Below are positions 34,228 through 40,302 of a DNA stretch of 58,884 nt, piece by piece. The DNA is from Schleiferiaceae bacterium (lineage in GTDB: Bacteria; Bacteroidota; Bacteroidia; Flavobacteriales; Schleiferiaceae): contig JAGYIN010000011.1 in NCBI GenBank assembly GCA_018402665.1, forward strand, positions 1 to 58,884, given 5' to 3'. Both the position numbers and the translations under genes were made by a program. Numbering within the stretch: the stretch's first letter is position 1; the number at the start of each line of letters is the position of its first letter. Under the pieces are notes generated by a model that was not told where the DNA came from, made no database searches, and was given only the letters and a program-made list of their open reading frames with translations.

Positions 34228-34239
34228 TTAGAATTCTAA
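34228..34239. repeat. Perfect 12-bp palindrome upstream of the S24 repressor gene
   Basis: TTAGAATTCTAA lies between the divergent genes at 34192 and 34306, about 67 bases before the repressor start. It could be an autoregulatory operator. It does not match the dyad before dinB, so a shared operator is not supported. Confidence 0.35.
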
Positions 34240-34305
34240 CTAAATTAGCATAATCAAATAAGAAACGTGCGCCCACTTTTCTTGACCTACTAAAGATACG
34301 GCCTT

Positions 34306-35088
34306 ATGAATTACGTAAAAAACAACCTTAAGTTCCTTCGCAAGAAGGAGGCGCTCACACAAGAGCAACTGGCTACTAAAATTGGTGTAAAACGCGCCAT
34401 GATAGGTGCGTATGAAGAAGGTAGGGCGGAGCCTCGTCTACATACACTGCAGCATTTAGCCGCTTATTTCCAGGTACGCTTGGATGATTTTGTAAACAAG
34501 GATCTTTCCGGTTCTAGCAGTATTCCTAAAGCAGATATTAGTGGTGCTCAGTTGCGCATTTTGCCTGTTGTAGTTGACGGTACAGACGAGAGGGAGCTGG
34601 GAACGTTGGTTCCTGTAAAGGCTTCAGCGGGATACCTCAGTGGCTATGGCGATGCTGATTATATTGGTGCATTACCGCGTTTTTCCATGCCCTTTCCTGA
34701 GCTGCCTCAGGACCGTACCTACAGAGTATTTCAAATTAGAGGGGAGAGCATGCTTCCTATCAAACCGGGATCGTACGTGATTACAGAATATGTTCAAGAT
34801 TGGAAATCTATTCGCAATGACGAGTGTCATGTTTTGATTACGAAAGACGAAGGTGTTGTTTACAAGCGTGTCATTAATAACCTCCACATCGGTGAACTAA
34901 TGCTGAAATCAGATAACCCACAGTTTGCGCCTTACACGGTTCCTGTAGACCGCTTGGTAGAGGTTTGGAAAGCGGTTGGTTATACCAGCTTTGAATTACC
35001 TGCCGCAGGTACAGGTCAAGAAATGTCTCAGCTCATGCACATGATGGCAGATCTAAAAAAAGAGATGAATCATCTGAAAGACAACTAA
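34306..35088 (+). CDS. LexA-like XRE-S24 self-cleaving repressor
   Basis: A protein of 260 residues. Residues 5-62 form a Cro/C1 HTH ('LTQEQLATKIGVKRAMIGAYEEGRAEP'). Residues about 100-220 form an S24 LexA-type peptidase. The scissile Ala-Gly lies at 108-109 in 'VKASAGYLSG', the nucleophile is Ser148 in 'RGESMLP' and the general base Lys187 is in 'VVYKRV', so the full self-cleavage apparatus is present. The C-terminal 30 residues form a short coiled coil ('QLMHMMADLKKEMNHL'). It leads a run with a Y-family polymerase, SRAP and DnaE2, so it is the likely damage-responsive repressor of that set, in place of classical LexA. Confidence 0.93.
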   Translation: MNYVKNNLKFLRKKEALTQEQLATKIGVKRAMIGAYEEGRAEPRLHTLQHLAAYFQVRLDDFVNKDLSGSSSIPKADISGAQLRILPVVVDGTDERELGTLVPVKASAGYLSGYGDADYIGALPRFSMPFPELPQDRTYRVFQIRGESMLPIKPGSYVITEYVQDWKSIRNDECHVLITKDEGVVYKRVINNLHIGELMLKSDNPQFAPYTVPVDRLVEVWKAVGYTSFELPAAGTGQEMSQLMHMMADLKKEMNHLKDN

Positions 35089-35132
35089 TTAACACGTAAA
35101 GACAACTTCATCCATTGTGTTTTTGAGCGGCC

Positions 35133-35147
35133 TTCGAGCCGCTCGAA
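35133..35147. promoter_or_regulatory. Dyad-symmetric candidate operator before the Y-family polymerase gene
   Basis: TTCGAG-CCG-CTCGAA is a perfect 15-bp inverted repeat, 30 bases upstream of the -7 element of the polymerase gene, about where the -33 region begins. It is embedded in a second hairpin (GAGCGGC...GCCGCTC) that has no T run, so it is not a terminator. It is a plausible binding site for the LexA-like repressor encoded just upstream. Confidence 0.45.
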
Positions 35148-35177
35148 CTGCCTGTGGTGGGTCCTTACTTAACTAAA

Positions 35178-35185
35178 TACCTCTG
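35178..35185 (+). promoter_or_regulatory. Predicted -7 element for the Y-family polymerase gene, leaderless geometry
   Basis: TACCTCTG differs from TAnnTTTG by one base and ends five bases (AATTC) before the ATG at 35191. Confidence 0.5.
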
Positions 35186-35190
35186 AATTC

Positions 35191-36402
35191 ATGGATCGCT
35201 CCATCTTACATATGGACCTTGATACGTTCTTCGTTTCCGTTGAACGCTTGATGGATAGCCGCCTAAATGGTAAGCCTATACTCATTGGCGGTACTGGTGA
35301 TCGTGGGGTAGTTGCAGCGTGCAGTTATGAGACGAGAAAGTTTGGAGTTCATTCTGCCATGCCCATGCGTATGGCTCGTTCTCTTTGTCCTGAAGCCATT
35401 ATCATTCGAGGGAATTCCGCAAACTACAGCAAATTCTCCAACTTAGTCACAGATGTTATTAAAGAGGATGTACCGGTTTACGAGAAAACATCGGTAGACG
35501 AGTTTTATGTTGATCTCACAGGTATGGATCGCTTCTTTGGGAACTTCAAATTTGCCAGTGAACTAAGGGACCGTGTCATTAAGGAAACAGGATTACCCAT
35601 TAGTTTTGGTTTGTCTTTAAATAAAACAGTTAGTAAGGTAGCCACAGGTGAAGCGAAGCCTAACAATAAGATTTTCGTTCAAAAAGGGCTGGAGCGTCCG
35701 TTTCTAGCACCTTTATCGGTTCGTAAGATTCCCATGGTGGGAGAGAAGACCTACCAGACTCTTCGAAATCTAGGGGTACGCCGTATTCAAACGTTGCAAG
35801 AAATGCCATTGGAGATGATGCAAAGTGTCATGGGTAAGCACGGTGCTGTGATTTGGCATAAGGCTCAGGGCGTTGATCAGAGCCCTGTTGTCCCTTACCA
35901 AGAGCGCAAGAGTATTTCAACAGAGCGCACTTTTGCTAAGGATACTATCGATGTGGTTAAGCTTGAAGGAATTATCGTTGCTATGACAGAGAATCTTGCC
36001 TATCAGTTGCGTCGTGGTGATAAGTTAACTTCTTGCATTACCGTTAGGATTAGATATTCAGATTTCAACACCCATACGCTTCAAGCACGCATACCATATA
36101 CTGCGGCAGATCACCTTCTTATTCCTAAAGTCAAGGAACTGTTCCAAAAACTCTTTGAGCGTAGATTGCTCGTGCGTTTGGTAGGTGTTCGCTTCTCTCA
36201 TTTAGTAGGGGGAGGGTATCAGATGAATCTGTTTGAAGAGAGTGAGGAGCTCAGTAAACTTTACAGCGCTATGGATCACATACGACAACGGTTCGGTGAT
36301 CGTTCAGTGTTGCGCGCCGTTTCTCTAGGTGCTAAAACCATAGGAAGGACAAATCCATTTAACGGTGAACCACCACCGCTTTTAGCGAACAGACATCAGT
36401 AA
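35191..36402 (+). CDS. Y-family translesion DNA polymerase (DinB/UmuC type)
   Basis: A protein of 403 residues. It copies damaged DNA with low fidelity. Catalytic acids are Asp9 in 'HMDLDTFFVSVE' and Asp103-Glu104 in 'SVDEFYVDLTG'. A steric-gate aromatic follows Asp11. The little finger spans about 240-340. At 344-348 'QMNLF' matches the beta-clamp motif QxxLF, but 55 further residues follow it, a tail more like UmuC than DinB. The gene follows the LexA-like repressor by 102 bases and has its own promoter and dyad. SRAP and DnaE2 genes follow in tight order, so it probably serves as the polymerase partner in an induced mutagenesis set. Confidence 0.93.
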   Translation: MDRSILHMDLDTFFVSVERLMDSRLNGKPILIGGTGDRGVVAACSYETRKFGVHSAMPMRMARSLCPEAIIIRGNSANYSKFSNLVTDVIKEDVPVYEKTSVDEFYVDLTGMDRFFGNFKFASELRDRVIKETGLPISFGLSLNKTVSKVATGEAKPNNKIFVQKGLERPFLAPLSVRKIPMVGEKTYQTLRNLGVRRIQTLQEMPLEMMQSVMGKHGAVIWHKAQGVDQSPVVPYQERKSISTERTFAKDTIDVVKLEGIIVAMTENLAYQLRRGDKLTSCITVRIRYSDFNTHTLQARIPYTAADHLLIPKVKELFQKLFERRLLVRLVGVRFSHLVGGGYQMNLFEESEELSKLYSAMDHIRQRFGDRSVLRAVSLGAKTIGRTNPFNGEPPPLLANRHQ

Positions 36403-36426
36403 ACGTAGACAAACAGAGAGGAAAAT

Positions 36427-37236
36427 ATGTGTGGTAGATATGTAGCTATTAGTAAAGTAAAGGCCGTAGAGAAGCGGTTCAGCGCACTTGTAGAGCGTCC
36501 AGAACTCTTTACGCCGAATACTAATATTGGTATAGGAACATTAGCACCTGTGATTACACAGGAACATTCCGACCGTATAAAGCATTACCAGTTTGGATTT
36601 ACTCCGTATTGGGCGAAGAAACCATTTTACCTTTTTAATGCTCGTTCAGAAGGGGATCACAATAAGGAAAATAACCCTACCTACCGTGGTGCAAAGGGCA
36701 TTACAGTGAAGCCAGCCTTTCGACAAAGCATTCGGTCTAAACGTTGTCTTGTACTGGCGGATGGATTTATAGAGGGACCACAAAAAGAGCGTTTGTCAAA
36801 ACCGTACGTCATTTATAAAAGGGATGGAGCTCCTTTCGCTTTCGCTGGATTGTACGATACCTGGGTAAATCCAGATACCGGCGAGATGGTCGATAGTTTT
36901 GCGATTATTACAACGGTGAGCAATAAAATCACAGCTGCTATCGATCACCACCGATCACCTGTAATTCTCAATGAAGAAGATGAATCTATTTGGTTAGACC
37001 CTACGACACCATTAGCAGAGGTAACGGATTTACTTTTTCCATATCCTGCTGAAGAACTTAATGCTTATCCAATAGCAGCGGCAATAAAAAATCCTAGGAG
37101 CAATGGACCGGAATTACTCAAGCCCATTGGAGAGCGTTTGGTTACGGAATACGATTATGAAATTCATACCCACCTGGGTTTACAAGGAATGGGGATGACT
37201 CAAGCACGTCAACGCAAGCTGGATCTAGGCTTCTAG
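36427..37236 (+). CDS. SRAP/HMCES-type SOS-associated protein (YedK family)
   Basis: A protein of 269 residues. YedK/HMCES proteins form a covalent thiazolidine link to abasic sites in single-stranded DNA through Cys2 and so shield them. Cys2 is present ('MCGRY'), as are the DNA-binding 'NARSE' (71-75), the catalytic Glu116 in 'ADGFIEGP' (usually 'ADGFYEW') and His175 in 'DHHRSPVIL'. A purine-rich AGAGAGGAAAAT sits just before the ATG, one of few Shine-Dalgarno-like sites here. It lies 24 bases after the Y-family polymerase gene and 21 bases before dnaE2, inside the damage-tolerance run. Confidence 0.95.
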   Translation: MCGRYVAISKVKAVEKRFSALVERPELFTPNTNIGIGTLAPVITQEHSDRIKHYQFGFTPYWAKKPFYLFNARSEGDHNKENNPTYRGAKGITVKPAFRQSIRSKRCLVLADGFIEGPQKERLSKPYVIYKRDGAPFAFAGLYDTWVNPDTGEMVDSFAIITTVSNKITAAIDHHRSPVILNEEDESIWLDPTTPLAEVTDLLFPYPAEELNAYPIAAAIKNPRSNGPELLKPIGERLVTEYDYEIHTHLGLQGMGMTQARQRKLDLGF

Positions 37237-37257
37237 AGACTGTAAAAAACAGAAGAG

Positions 37258-40200
37258 ATGTTAGTGAACTCGCACAGTTATTACAGCTTGCGTTACGGGG
37301 TACTTTCGCCTAAAGAGTGGCTGGCTTTCTTCGAAAGCCAGCCATGGTCCGCGATGGCTATCACTGATATTAATAACACTTCGGCATGCATGACCGTGCT
37401 CTATCTTTTACGCAATCACCCTAAAAAGCGTGCAGTCATCGGAGTAGATTTTAGAAATGGAATAACGCCCTGTTATGTGGCATTGGCTAAAAATTGGGAA
37501 GGCTTTCGCCAAATCAATGATCACTTATCAGAACATCTTCATCGAAAGCAGCGCTTTTCATCGCGCGCTCCGGTCGCAGCACTTAAAGACGCCTGGATTA
37601 TTTATCCTTTAGAAAGTCTTCCGCCCGATGCGCCACTAGCACCAAACGAACTTATAGGAGTAGGGGCAGACCAGTTGCGCTTCCTACACCTTTCACCACA
37701 TGTACGTCGTCAGCACAAACTTATTGCAATGCCTACGGCAACTTTTAGAGGAAAGCGAGACCACAATGCACACCGCTTACTGCGTGCTATTGATGAGAAT
37801 GCCTTGCTGAGTAAACTCTCAAAGGACAAACAAGCAAATGAAGACGATCTGTACCTGTCTAACGATGAATTACGGAGAGCCTATGTTGAAGTACCTTACT
37901 TACTACGCCAGGCCCAACAGGTATTGGAGGACTGTGCGGTTTTGTTGCCAGATGAAGCCTCACTGAACTTACAGACCTACACCGGTTCAAAACAGAAGGA
38001 TTTACGCCTGCTAAAAAAATTGGCTTATGACGGTATACCTTATCGTTATCCAACGGTAGACTTCAAAGTAAAGGAGCGTATTGAGAAGGAACTGGAACTA
38101 ATTGCAAAGAAGAACTTTGTGTCCTATTTCTTAATCAACTGGGACATTGTAAACTATGCCCAAAAACGCGGTTATTTCTACGTTGGGCGTGGGAGTGGAG
38201 CAAATAGTATTGTCGCTTATTTGTTGAAAATCACAGATGTAGACCCCATTGAATTGGACTTGTATTTTGAGCGCTTCATTAATCTGTACCGGACATCTCC
38301 TCCAGATTTTGATCTTGATTTTTCCTGGCGTGATCGAGACGATATTACTCAATACATCTTTAAACGCTTCCCGCACACCGCGCTACTAGCTACCTACAAT
38401 ACGTTTCAATACCGTGCGGTAGTTCGTGAATTGGGGAAGGTGTTTGGTCTACCTAAACATGAGATAGATAAATTGAGTAGGGGGAAGTTTACTAGCAATG
38501 AATTGGACCAATTGGGCCACCTCGTACTACGCTATAGTACGTATATCCAGGGATTTCCAAGCCATTTAAGCATTCATGCTGGAGGGATTTTGATTGCTGA
38601 AAAGAGCATACATTACCATACAGGGACTTTTTTACCACCGAAAGGCTTCGCAACAACGCAATTTGATATGGTGGTGGCAGAAGATATTGGACTACATAAA
38701 TTTGATATCCTTAGTCAACGTGGGCTCTCTAAAATTCAAGATGCGCTGCACATTATTCGTAAAAATAAACCAGAGGACAGACTCCTAGACATCCGAAACT
38801 TACAGCCATTCAAGCAAGATGAGAAAATCAAATCTATTTTGCGCGACGGCAGCGCCATGGGCTGCTTTTATGTCGAATCGCCTGCGATGCGCATGCTGCT
38901 TAAGAAACTAAAGGTGGATACCTACCTCGGTTTAGTTGCAGCGAGTTCCATTATCCGCCCGGGGGTTAGTAACAGTGGCATGATGCGCGAATACATATTG
39001 CGTTTCACTGATCCAGAGCGGCGTCAAGATGCACACCCCGTATTACTTGATATCATGCCAGATACGTTTGGGGTGATGGTATACCAGGAGGATGTGATTA
39101 AAGTGGCCCATTATTTTGCCGGTTTGTCTTTGGGTGAAGCAGATGTTTTGCGCCGCGGTATGTCGGGGAAATTTCGTTCAAGAGAGGAGTTTAAACGTGT
39201 TGAAAATCAGTACTTTGAAAACTGTAAGGCACGTGGGTATAGTTTGGAATTGGCACAGGATATTTGGCGTCAAATAGAAAGTTTTGCGGGCTACGCTTTT
39301 GCTAAAGGACACAGTGCTTCTTATGCTGTCGAAAGTTATCAAAGCCTCTATTTAAAGGCACATTATCCTCTGGAGTACATGGTGGCTGTCATCAATAACT
39401 TCGGCGGCTTTTACAGTACGGAGTTTTATGTACACGAGGCCAGGAAACTTGGGGGAATAGTGGAAGCTCCATGTGTACAGCAGGGCGATTACCCCACAGT
39501 CATTCGCGGAACAACAATCTATTTAGGTTTTGTTTTGCTGCACGGTTTAGATGAGTCCGTAGGAGTGACCATAGGTCGGGAAAGACAGGAGGGAGGCCCC
39601 TTTAGTAATCTTACAGATTTTATAGACCGCGTACCAATTGGCATTGAACAATTATCACTGCTAATCAGAATAGGTGCTTTTAGGTTTACAGGCGTAGCCA
39701 AACAAACATTATTGTGGGAAGCGCACCACATGCTCAAGGGACACAAACAGTCGGCTGTACCCGCTGCATCACTCAGTTTATTTAAGGGAACGGTCAGTTC
39801 ACGCGATTATAAAGTGCCGCTGTTAGAGCAATCTGCATTAGAGCAGGCTTTCGATGAAATAGAATTACTGGGATTTCTATTAGCTGATCCGTTTTTATTA
39901 GCAGATGAGCCTATGAATCAAGGAACTACAGCCATAGAATTTCCAGAAAAACTAGGACATTTTGTGATTGCTTATGGATATTTGGTTACCGTTAAGGATA
40001 CGAAGACGCAAAAAGGAGACCGTATGAATTTTGCCACATTCGTAGATCAGAACGGGGATTTTCTAGATAGTGTACATTTTCCAAACATTGCTGCTCAATT
40101 TCCATTCCGCGGTAAAGGACTCTATAAGGTTCAAGGCCGTGTAGTTGAAGAATTTGGCTTTTACAGTATCGAGGCTTCGGCTTTGTATAAGCTGGCTGTT

Positions 40201-40302
40201 ATTCCTGATCCGCGTTACGAAGATCAGATGGCCCGTTCAAAAGATAATTACAGTAAGACTAAGGGCACAATGAAACGCGGCTCGAAACCTACAACGGGGT
40301 AG
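37258..40302 (+). CDS. Error-prone DNA polymerase III alpha subunit (DnaE2 type)
   Basis: A protein of 1014 residues, close to DnaE2 (~1050) and shorter than replicative DnaE (~1160). The palm shows 'PPDFDLDFSWRDRDDI' with catalytic Asp350 and Asp352, and later 'MVYQEDVIKVAHYFAGLSLGEADVLRRGMSGK'. The N-terminal PHP domain has lost metal ligands: the usual HxHSxYS is 'NSHSYYS' and TDH is 'TDIN', so it should lack proofreading or pyrophosphatase activity. 'SLSLF' near residue 839 resembles a clamp-binding site. A C-terminal OB fold ('GHFVIAYGYLVTVKDTKTQKGDRMNFATF') is present. It is last in the operon with repressor, Y-family polymerase and SRAP. Confidence 0.93.
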   Translation: MLVNSHSYYSLRYGVLSPKEWLAFFESQPWSAMAITDINNTSACMTVLYLLRNHPKKRAVIGVDFRNGITPCYVALAKNWEGFRQINDHLSEHLHRKQRFSSRAPVAALKDAWIIYPLESLPPDAPLAPNELIGVGADQLRFLHLSPHVRRQHKLIAMPTATFRGKRDHNAHRLLRAIDENALLSKLSKDKQANEDDLYLSNDELRRAYVEVPYLLRQAQQVLEDCAVLLPDEASLNLQTYTGSKQKDLRLLKKLAYDGIPYRYPTVDFKVKERIEKELELIAKKNFVSYFLINWDIVNYAQKRGYFYVGRGSGANSIVAYLLKITDVDPIELDLYFERFINLYRTSPPDFDLDFSWRDRDDITQYIFKRFPHTALLATYNTFQYRAVVRELGKVFGLPKHEIDKLSRGKFTSNELDQLGHLVLRYSTYIQGFPSHLSIHAGGILIAEKSIHYHTGTFLPPKGFATTQFDMVVAEDIGLHKFDILSQRGLSKIQDALHIIRKNKPEDRLLDIRNLQPFKQDEKIKSILRDGSAMGCFYVESPAMRMLLKKLKVDTYLGLVAASSIIRPGVSNSGMMREYILRFTDPERRQDAHPVLLDIMPDTFGVMVYQEDVIKVAHYFAGLSLGEADVLRRGMSGKFRSREEFKRVENQYFENCKARGYSLELAQDIWRQIESFAGYAFAKGHSASYAVESYQSLYLKAHYPLEYMVAVINNFGGFYSTEFYVHEARKLGGIVEAPCVQQGDYPTVIRGTTIYLGFVLLHGLDESVGVTIGRERQEGGPFSNLTDFIDRVPIGIEQLSLLIRIGAFRFTGVAKQTLLWEAHHMLKGHKQSAVPAASLSLFKGTVSSRDYKVPLLEQSALEQAFDEIELLGFLLADPFLLADEPMNQGTTAIEFPEKLGHFVIAYGYLVTVKDTKTQKGDRMNFATFVDQNGDFLDSVHFPNIAAQFPFRGKGLYKVQGRVVEEFGFYSIEASALYKLAVIPDPRYEDQMARSKDNYSKTKGTMKRGSKPTTG

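Follow-up and report, generated by a model that had tools for sequence, protein, structure and literature searches.

An SOS response that runs without classical LexA, under a non-canonical LexA, has been described in Bacteroidetes (Sanchez-Osuna et al., 2021; PMC8565304), where binding to the motif CTAA-N5-TTAG was shown by electrophoretic mobility shift assay. A PolY–DnaE2B–RecA mutasome of Bacteroidetes was published in 2019 and 2026 (PMC6511836, PMC12926913), and SRAP-like proteins have been tied to UmuC-like polymerases among associations that are independent of DnaE2 (PMC12926913). Aravind et al. (2013; PMC3765255) pointed out that SRAP is linked to DinB in operons, some of which also contain LexA or a DnaE paralogue, and co-opted phage-repressor units of the type of FddR from Francisella have been proposed as building blocks of SOS networks (PMC13148647). 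We analysed a stretch of 58,884 nucleotides, hereafter the window, which is contig C3 of an assembly of 1.95 Mb in 26 contigs (89% complete) from a marine Bacteroidota bacterium of the Schleiferiaceae (Flavobacteriales). At 34306–40302 it carries an operon that encodes a LexA-type repressor, a Y-family polymerase, a SRAP protein and a DnaE2-type polymerase. It seems likely that the regulatory and polymerase core of this module is a PolY–DnaE2 mutasome controlled by a non-canonical LexA, to which SRAP has been added.

The window repressor resembles the published non-canonical LexA (PMC8565304) in its combination of an S24 domain with a PF01381 helix-turn-helix (HTH), in its Ala-Gly bond and Ser-Lys residues, in the occurrence of CTAA-N5-TTAG before both its own gene and recA, and in having error-prone polymerases as predicted targets. 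It differs from that system in heading the polymerase operon itself and in having two clear promoter-type targets, as against 8.90 ± 3.27 operons in the families with large regulons (PMC8565304). With the PolY–DnaE2B–RecA system (PMC6511836, PMC12926913) the operon shares an apparently active Y-family polymerase that lies beside DnaE2 and is not accompanied by ImuB, and possibly also the RecA-NT-like motif of this polymerase; unlike that system, it has SRAP between the polymerases and the repressor ahead of them. The position of SRAP beside a DinB-type polymerase, a LexA-type repressor and a DnaE paralogue recalls the SRAP-associated SOS operons of PMC3765255, but the statement there is a general one: we did not find the four-gene order and the operator described in its accessible text, and the string 'bacteroid' does not occur in its main text. 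FddR (PMC13148647) is likewise an S24 repressor of itself and of neighbouring genes, but it is a different repressor, with the motif GTG-N11-CAC and a divergent arrangement of genes.

The initial annotation had read the four genes as one compact mutagenesis operon. Open reading frames (ORFs) and domain calls with Pfam and NCBIfam agree with this layout, in which all four genes are co-directional and are separated by gaps of 102, 24 and 21 nt. The features of the operon are as follows.

34236–34248, no strand assigned: operator CTAACTAAATTAG, an exact CTAA-N5-TTAG that lies 57 bp ahead of the ATG of the repressor, between this gene and the divergent ORF
34306–35088, + strand: non-canonical LexA repressor (HTH_3 and Peptidase_S24)
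35125–35144, + strand: hairpin with a 7-bp stem, GAGCGGC-loop-GCCGCTC, between the repressor and Y-family polymerase genes
35191–36402, + strand: Y-family polymerase, similar to DNA polymerase IV (IMS and IMS_C)
36427–37236, + strand: SRAP protein (SRAP domain, E 9.1e-48)
37258–40302, + strand: DnaE2-type polymerase, related to the DNA polymerase III alpha chain (DNA_pol3_alpha, finger and HHH_6)

Conservation of gene order had been proposed as a check on the idea of a single module, and it was found within part of the family. Our synteny set comprised 88 genomes of the window's family, with genera labelled g1, g4, g5 and so on. The order repressor–PolY–SRAP–DnaE2 is contiguous on one contig in 32 of the 88, which belong to four genera (15 genomes in g1, three in g5, three in g14 and 11 in g17). 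Four genomes of genus g15 have the order repressor–SRAP–DnaE2–PolY, and PolY–DnaE2 is separate from the repressor in some genera, g4 and g7 among them; several further family loci are interrupted by contig ends. We also considered the best 80 of 562 named loci, ranked by similarity of the Y-family polymerase (L033–L112). Among these the four-gene order occurs only in L033–L045, some of which end at a contig edge, and the repressor is divergent from DnaE2–PolY in 26 loci. The synteny table left out Y-family polymerase matches of 25–35% identity, DnaE1-like matches of about 30–33% identity (among the matches listed) and repressor matches weaker than E 1.4e-32, and retained every listed SRAP match. 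The nearest named relatives are metagenome assemblies of Schleiferiaceae or of other Flavobacteriales or Bacteroidetes, with Y-family polymerases of 92–99% identity; the identity of the Phaeocystidibacter luteus enzyme to that of the window is 76%. P. luteus has all four genes as well (L045), with one mismatch in the operator and without an operator upstream of recA.

Repressor, operator and predicted regulon

As the initial annotation had claimed, the repressor has the residues of a self-cleaving S24 protein: A108–G109, S148 and K187 are kept in 72 of 72 aligned homologues. The Peptidase_S24 domain scores 24.9 bits against a Pfam cut-off of 23.3 and is joined to a PF01381-type HTH. It provides the only PF00717 match genome-wide, and no second S24 protein was found in this 89% complete assembly. 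In the PDB, the best fold match of the AlphaFold model is 8trg, a structure of LexA together with a RecA filament (E 8.8e-7), with a root-mean-square deviation of 18.5 and a template modelling (TM) score of 0.36 over the whole chain. Chains of the LexA C-terminal domain superpose better on the model (for example 8gms_A, TM 0.70 by target). The model places a possible C-terminal helix, an additional feature of the non-canonical LexA family, at residues 237–259, with a mean predicted local distance difference test (pLDDT) score of just 40–51 across residues 231–260.

We surveyed the 120 bp upstream of the repressor start codon for the operator in 70 family genomes. An exact CTAA-N5-TTAG is present in 44 of them, compared with 0.32 expected from dinucleotide shuffles, and 57 have the motif with at most one mismatch. 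Exact copies occur in 21/21 genomes of the window genus (the window included), 19/19 of g17, 3/4 of g15 and 1/1 of g11, and in none of the other 14 genera examined, g5 and g14 among them. Were the divergent ORF to begin at its longest GTG start (34276), it would cover the operator, but in three close relatives (L004–L006) its frame closes at about 34200. GGA-N5-TCC, the alternative operator of this repressor family, was rejected, being seen among the repressor upstream regions only in one locus outside the family (L048). In several genomes of g17 the repressor promoter (for example L114 and L131) has two operators spaced 17 bp from start to start, a pairing that suggests cooperative binding.

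To delimit the regulon, we counted exact CTAA-N5-TTAG matches across the window genome. There are 33 such sites, compared with 67 for a reversed control pattern. With ORFs called from the longest start and at a 60-aa minimum, 30 of the 32 sites outside the operon fall within ORFs, two of which (72 and 91 aa) are perhaps spurious; a larger regulon in this genome was rejected on these grounds. The two sites outside ORFs are one 264 bp before a gene on contig C25 and one before recA. The latter follows a TANNTTTG element, which we take to be a Bacteroidota −7 box, and 12 bp separate its end from the start codon (ATG) of the one RecA gene detected. In a survey of the recA upstream regions of 50 genomes, out of 83 with a RecA match, this operator is exact in 18/18 genomes of the same genus, the window's included. 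Judged from these sites, Schleiferiaceae are predicted to have a small SOS regulon made up of the operon and recA. The operators before the operon and recA, together with the single PF00717 match, support the suggested SOS-like module of a lineage that lacks classical LexA.

Two further observations concern the regulon. The recA upstream region of one g17 genome (G042) carries a double operator that matches the one before its repressor gene; comparison of the two promoters (L259 and L131) reveals the same double operator and a repressor-like stretch at the start codon, so that its recA looks to have captured the repressor promoter. A site at C1:6301–6313 (L154), at the start of an ORF that is presumably aroQ-like and 74 bp before a gene of the Phage_integrase family, is a candidate for a third regulon target.

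The hairpin between the repressor and polymerase genes has a stem that is readable, with G-U pairs allowed, in 13 of 14 aligned loci of the same genus; in three loci, L021 and, outside the alignment, L013 and L019, it is degenerate. A terminator reading was rejected since the downstream U-tract of a standard terminator is absent. The GC-rich hairpin is possibly an element of RNA processing or expression tuning.

The polymerase pair

The Y-family polymerase has the catalytic acids D9, D103 and E104, which are conserved in 103 of 103 homologues. The ImuB reading was rejected because these acids are kept, and by its sequence the protein is a catalytically intact enzyme of the DinB/PolY type; its partner genes indicate the Bacteroidetes PolY2 type. 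The clamp-binding motif that had been predicted is present as QMNLF at residues 344–348, the Q and F being found in 103/103 homologues. The C-terminus of the protein aligns weakly with the N-terminus of the organism's own RecA (using a RecA profile that included 18 of 30 RecA loci), in the position where a RecA-NT motif would be expected. Pfam found no further domain in the protein, ImuB-C not having been searched for genome-wide, and there is no second Y-family match at 1e-20 in the window genome.

In the DnaE2-type polymerase the catalytic residues D350 and D352 are present in 67 of 67 homologues. The protein had been described as DnaE2-like with a degenerate PHP domain, and indeed no PHP domain reaches E 0.001 in Pfam; such a reduced PHP region fits a Bacteroidetes DnaE2. 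Its SLSLF (838–842) aligns with QLDLF of the Escherichia coli alpha chain (5fku), presumably the clamp-binding site of that chain, with just the L and F conserved.

The likeness to imuA-imuB-dnaE2 cassettes pointed out in the initial annotation therefore needs qualification. The part that stands is that DnaE2 and a Y-family protein share an operon predicted to be damage-regulated; unlike in those cassettes, the Y-family protein is catalytically intact and is not ImuB, and imuA is not among the genes of the operon, as had been claimed. A search of the whole genome with an ImuA model gave a score for RecA only (46 bits, against a cut-off of 150). None of 14 control genomes passed this cut-off, including Caulobacter, which we take to have imuA, so that the sensitivity of the search is in doubt. 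A search with PF00154 likewise returned RecA alone.

Several results weigh against the proposed module. The exact operator is missing upstream of the repressor in 26 of the 70 family genomes, and in 13 even when one mismatch is allowed; in g5 and g14, two of the genera with the four-gene order, only one-mismatch operators were seen (5 genomes examined). Outside the window genus the recA operator is exact in just 1 of 32 genomes, the g17 genome mentioned above. Genomes of one genus are not independent and the counts ignore kinship, so that the 44 genomes with an exact operator do not represent 44 events. Confidence in the repressor model is modest overall (mean pLDDT 66.6) and low at the cleavage loop and the C-terminal helix. 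The RecA-NT alignment is weak (hhalign P 8.7e-4, probability 23%), and 31 of 5000 shuffles align equally well. Genome-wide absences are limited by the completeness of the assembly (89%). Finally, repressor, PolY and DnaE2 are adjacent without SRAP in 5 of the 88 family genomes, which argues that SRAP is not essential to the module.

SRAP and the accounts of its role

The catalytic residues ascribed to the SRAP protein withstand comparison with its relatives. C2, N71 and E116 are present in 24 of 24 aligned homologues, distant paralogues included, and H174, aligned in 16 of the 24, is invariant in 16/16 operon-type SRAPs and their near kin. The structural model (mean pLDDT 86.4) matches HMCES and the structure of YedK crosslinked to abasic DNA (6nua). 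On the basis of its active site and modelled fold, the protein is assigned to the YedK/HMCES family.

In the human system, the SRAP protein HMCES suppresses translesion synthesis at abasic sites (PMC9436759, PMC10250235); therefore SRAP may oppose rather than help the polymerases with which it is co-induced. Having lost Met1, it would covalently cap abasic sites in single-stranded gaps, and the cap would shield them both from breakage and from the co-induced error-prone polymerases. Such capping of abasic sites away from polymerases fits the HMCES literature; cooperation with the polymerases and mere co-regulation were also considered. We infer this role of SRAP within the operon without a direct precedent, and put the chance that it acts as a shield at about even.

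Almost even, too, is the chance that SRAP is a co-regulated passenger, drawn under a damage-inducible promoter because abasic sites accumulate after damage, and without a physical or functional link to the polymerases. Its absence from the five repressor–PolY–DnaE2 operons would be consistent with this, as would its shifted position in the four genomes with the order repressor–SRAP–DnaE2–PolY and the prediction of COG2135 as regulated in other Bacteroidetes. Distribution bears on the question in both directions. Of 296 genomes sampled from the order, 29 have SRAP at E 1e-30 or better, the threshold by which we define the operon type, and 28 of these belong to the family. Around the sole match outside the family (G100), neither the repressor nor a polymerase is encoded within 1.5 kb of SRAP, as expected of a passenger. 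Against a passenger, all 47 family genomes that have an operon-type SRAP carry it beside the repressor, PolY or DnaE2, and among the 16 genomes with distant SRAPs only, seven have one less than 5 kb from DnaE2. The restriction of SRAP to the family is not strict, since an unclassified member of the Flavobacteriales (L058) has a SRAP of 54% identity, 4.7 kb from PolY and on the opposite strand.

A closer association is suggested by the C-terminal tails of SRAP, judged against the consensus of beta-clamp-binding peptides. In the window genus the protein ends in KLDLGF or KLDFGF (KLDLGF in the window); g14 and g11 have QQSLF, and g12 has PTLDLFS. The tails in these four genera resemble clamp-binding peptides, which we regard as a lead and not as proof. 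If PolY, DnaE2 and SRAP all carry clamp-binding peptides, capping and bypass would compete, or hand over to one another, on one clamp. SRAP might then be a functional fourth component of the mutasome: its tail would hold it at the sliding clamp, where cooperation or a hand-over with PolY and DnaE2 would take place. Besides the tails themselves, the recurrence of distant SRAPs near DnaE2 in 7/16 genomes is in favour of this account, as is the rarity of the tail pattern: when the window and L033–L112 were scanned, 11 of 648 distinct complete ORFs with a length of 200 aa or more had it, of which nine are SRAPs. Opposed to it are the facts that the pattern was drawn up after the tails had been seen, that the window tail starts with K rather than Q, and that no clamp-like tail is present in the SRAPs read from g5, g15, g17 and g19. 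We consider this account unlikely, and accordingly the notion of SRAP as a clamp-tethered fourth part of a LexA-controlled mutasome across the family is put forward as a doubtful one. The two other ORFs with the pattern encode radical SAM proteins that adjoin the same polymerases (L044:13155–14195 and L051:9211–10284) and have the clamp-motif-like ends QFDLFR and QLNLF.

It is very improbable that the repressor is of a prophage type, controls nothing but its own operon and runs no SOS response: its CI-like HTH and the location of 30 of the 32 other operator matches within ORFs (longest-start calling) would suit such a regulator, but the recA operator is exact in all 18 genomes of the genus, the same repressor type drives mitomycin-induced regulons in other Bacteroidetes, and three Pfam scans of flanking genes gave no phage families, no wider phage screen having been made.

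Proposed course of the response and its meaning

By analogy with published homologues, then, the operon would work as a mutasome under a non-canonical LexA. Bound to CTAA-N5-TTAG at 34236–34248 and before recA, the repressor would keep both units off. RecA filaments formed on damaged single-stranded DNA would promote its self-cleavage at A108–G109, releasing the operon and recA. PolY, with its clamp-binding motif and RecA-NT-like tail, may then assemble with DnaE2 and RecA at the sliding clamp into an error-prone bypass complex, while SRAP caps would form at abasic sites.

The repressor type, the motif and the polymerase pair are already published, and the SRAP link is published in general form. 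Among open-licence papers we found no match for Schleiferiaceae with the SOS response, nor did these papers (main articles, supplements aside) yield the four-gene order, its distribution in the family, the small regulon or the tails. What is apparently new is the fixed place of SRAP in the 32 family genomes together with its clamp-like tails; that place, along with the very small size of the predicted regulon, seems to be a local variation.

The operator before recA is kept throughout one genus but hardly occurs in the others surveyed, and thereby marks a step in the growth or shrinkage of an SOS regulon. Abasic-site shielding is linked to the clamp in eukaryotes, and a clamp-tethered SRAP, if real, would be a bacterial parallel. 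Overall, the operon offers a compact example, with an SOS network predicted to comprise about two units. In this network a putative abasic-site shield would be induced alongside polymerases that might otherwise mutate across such sites. One could thus ask directly if SRAP in a bacterium restrains the mutagenesis that follows damage or promotes it.

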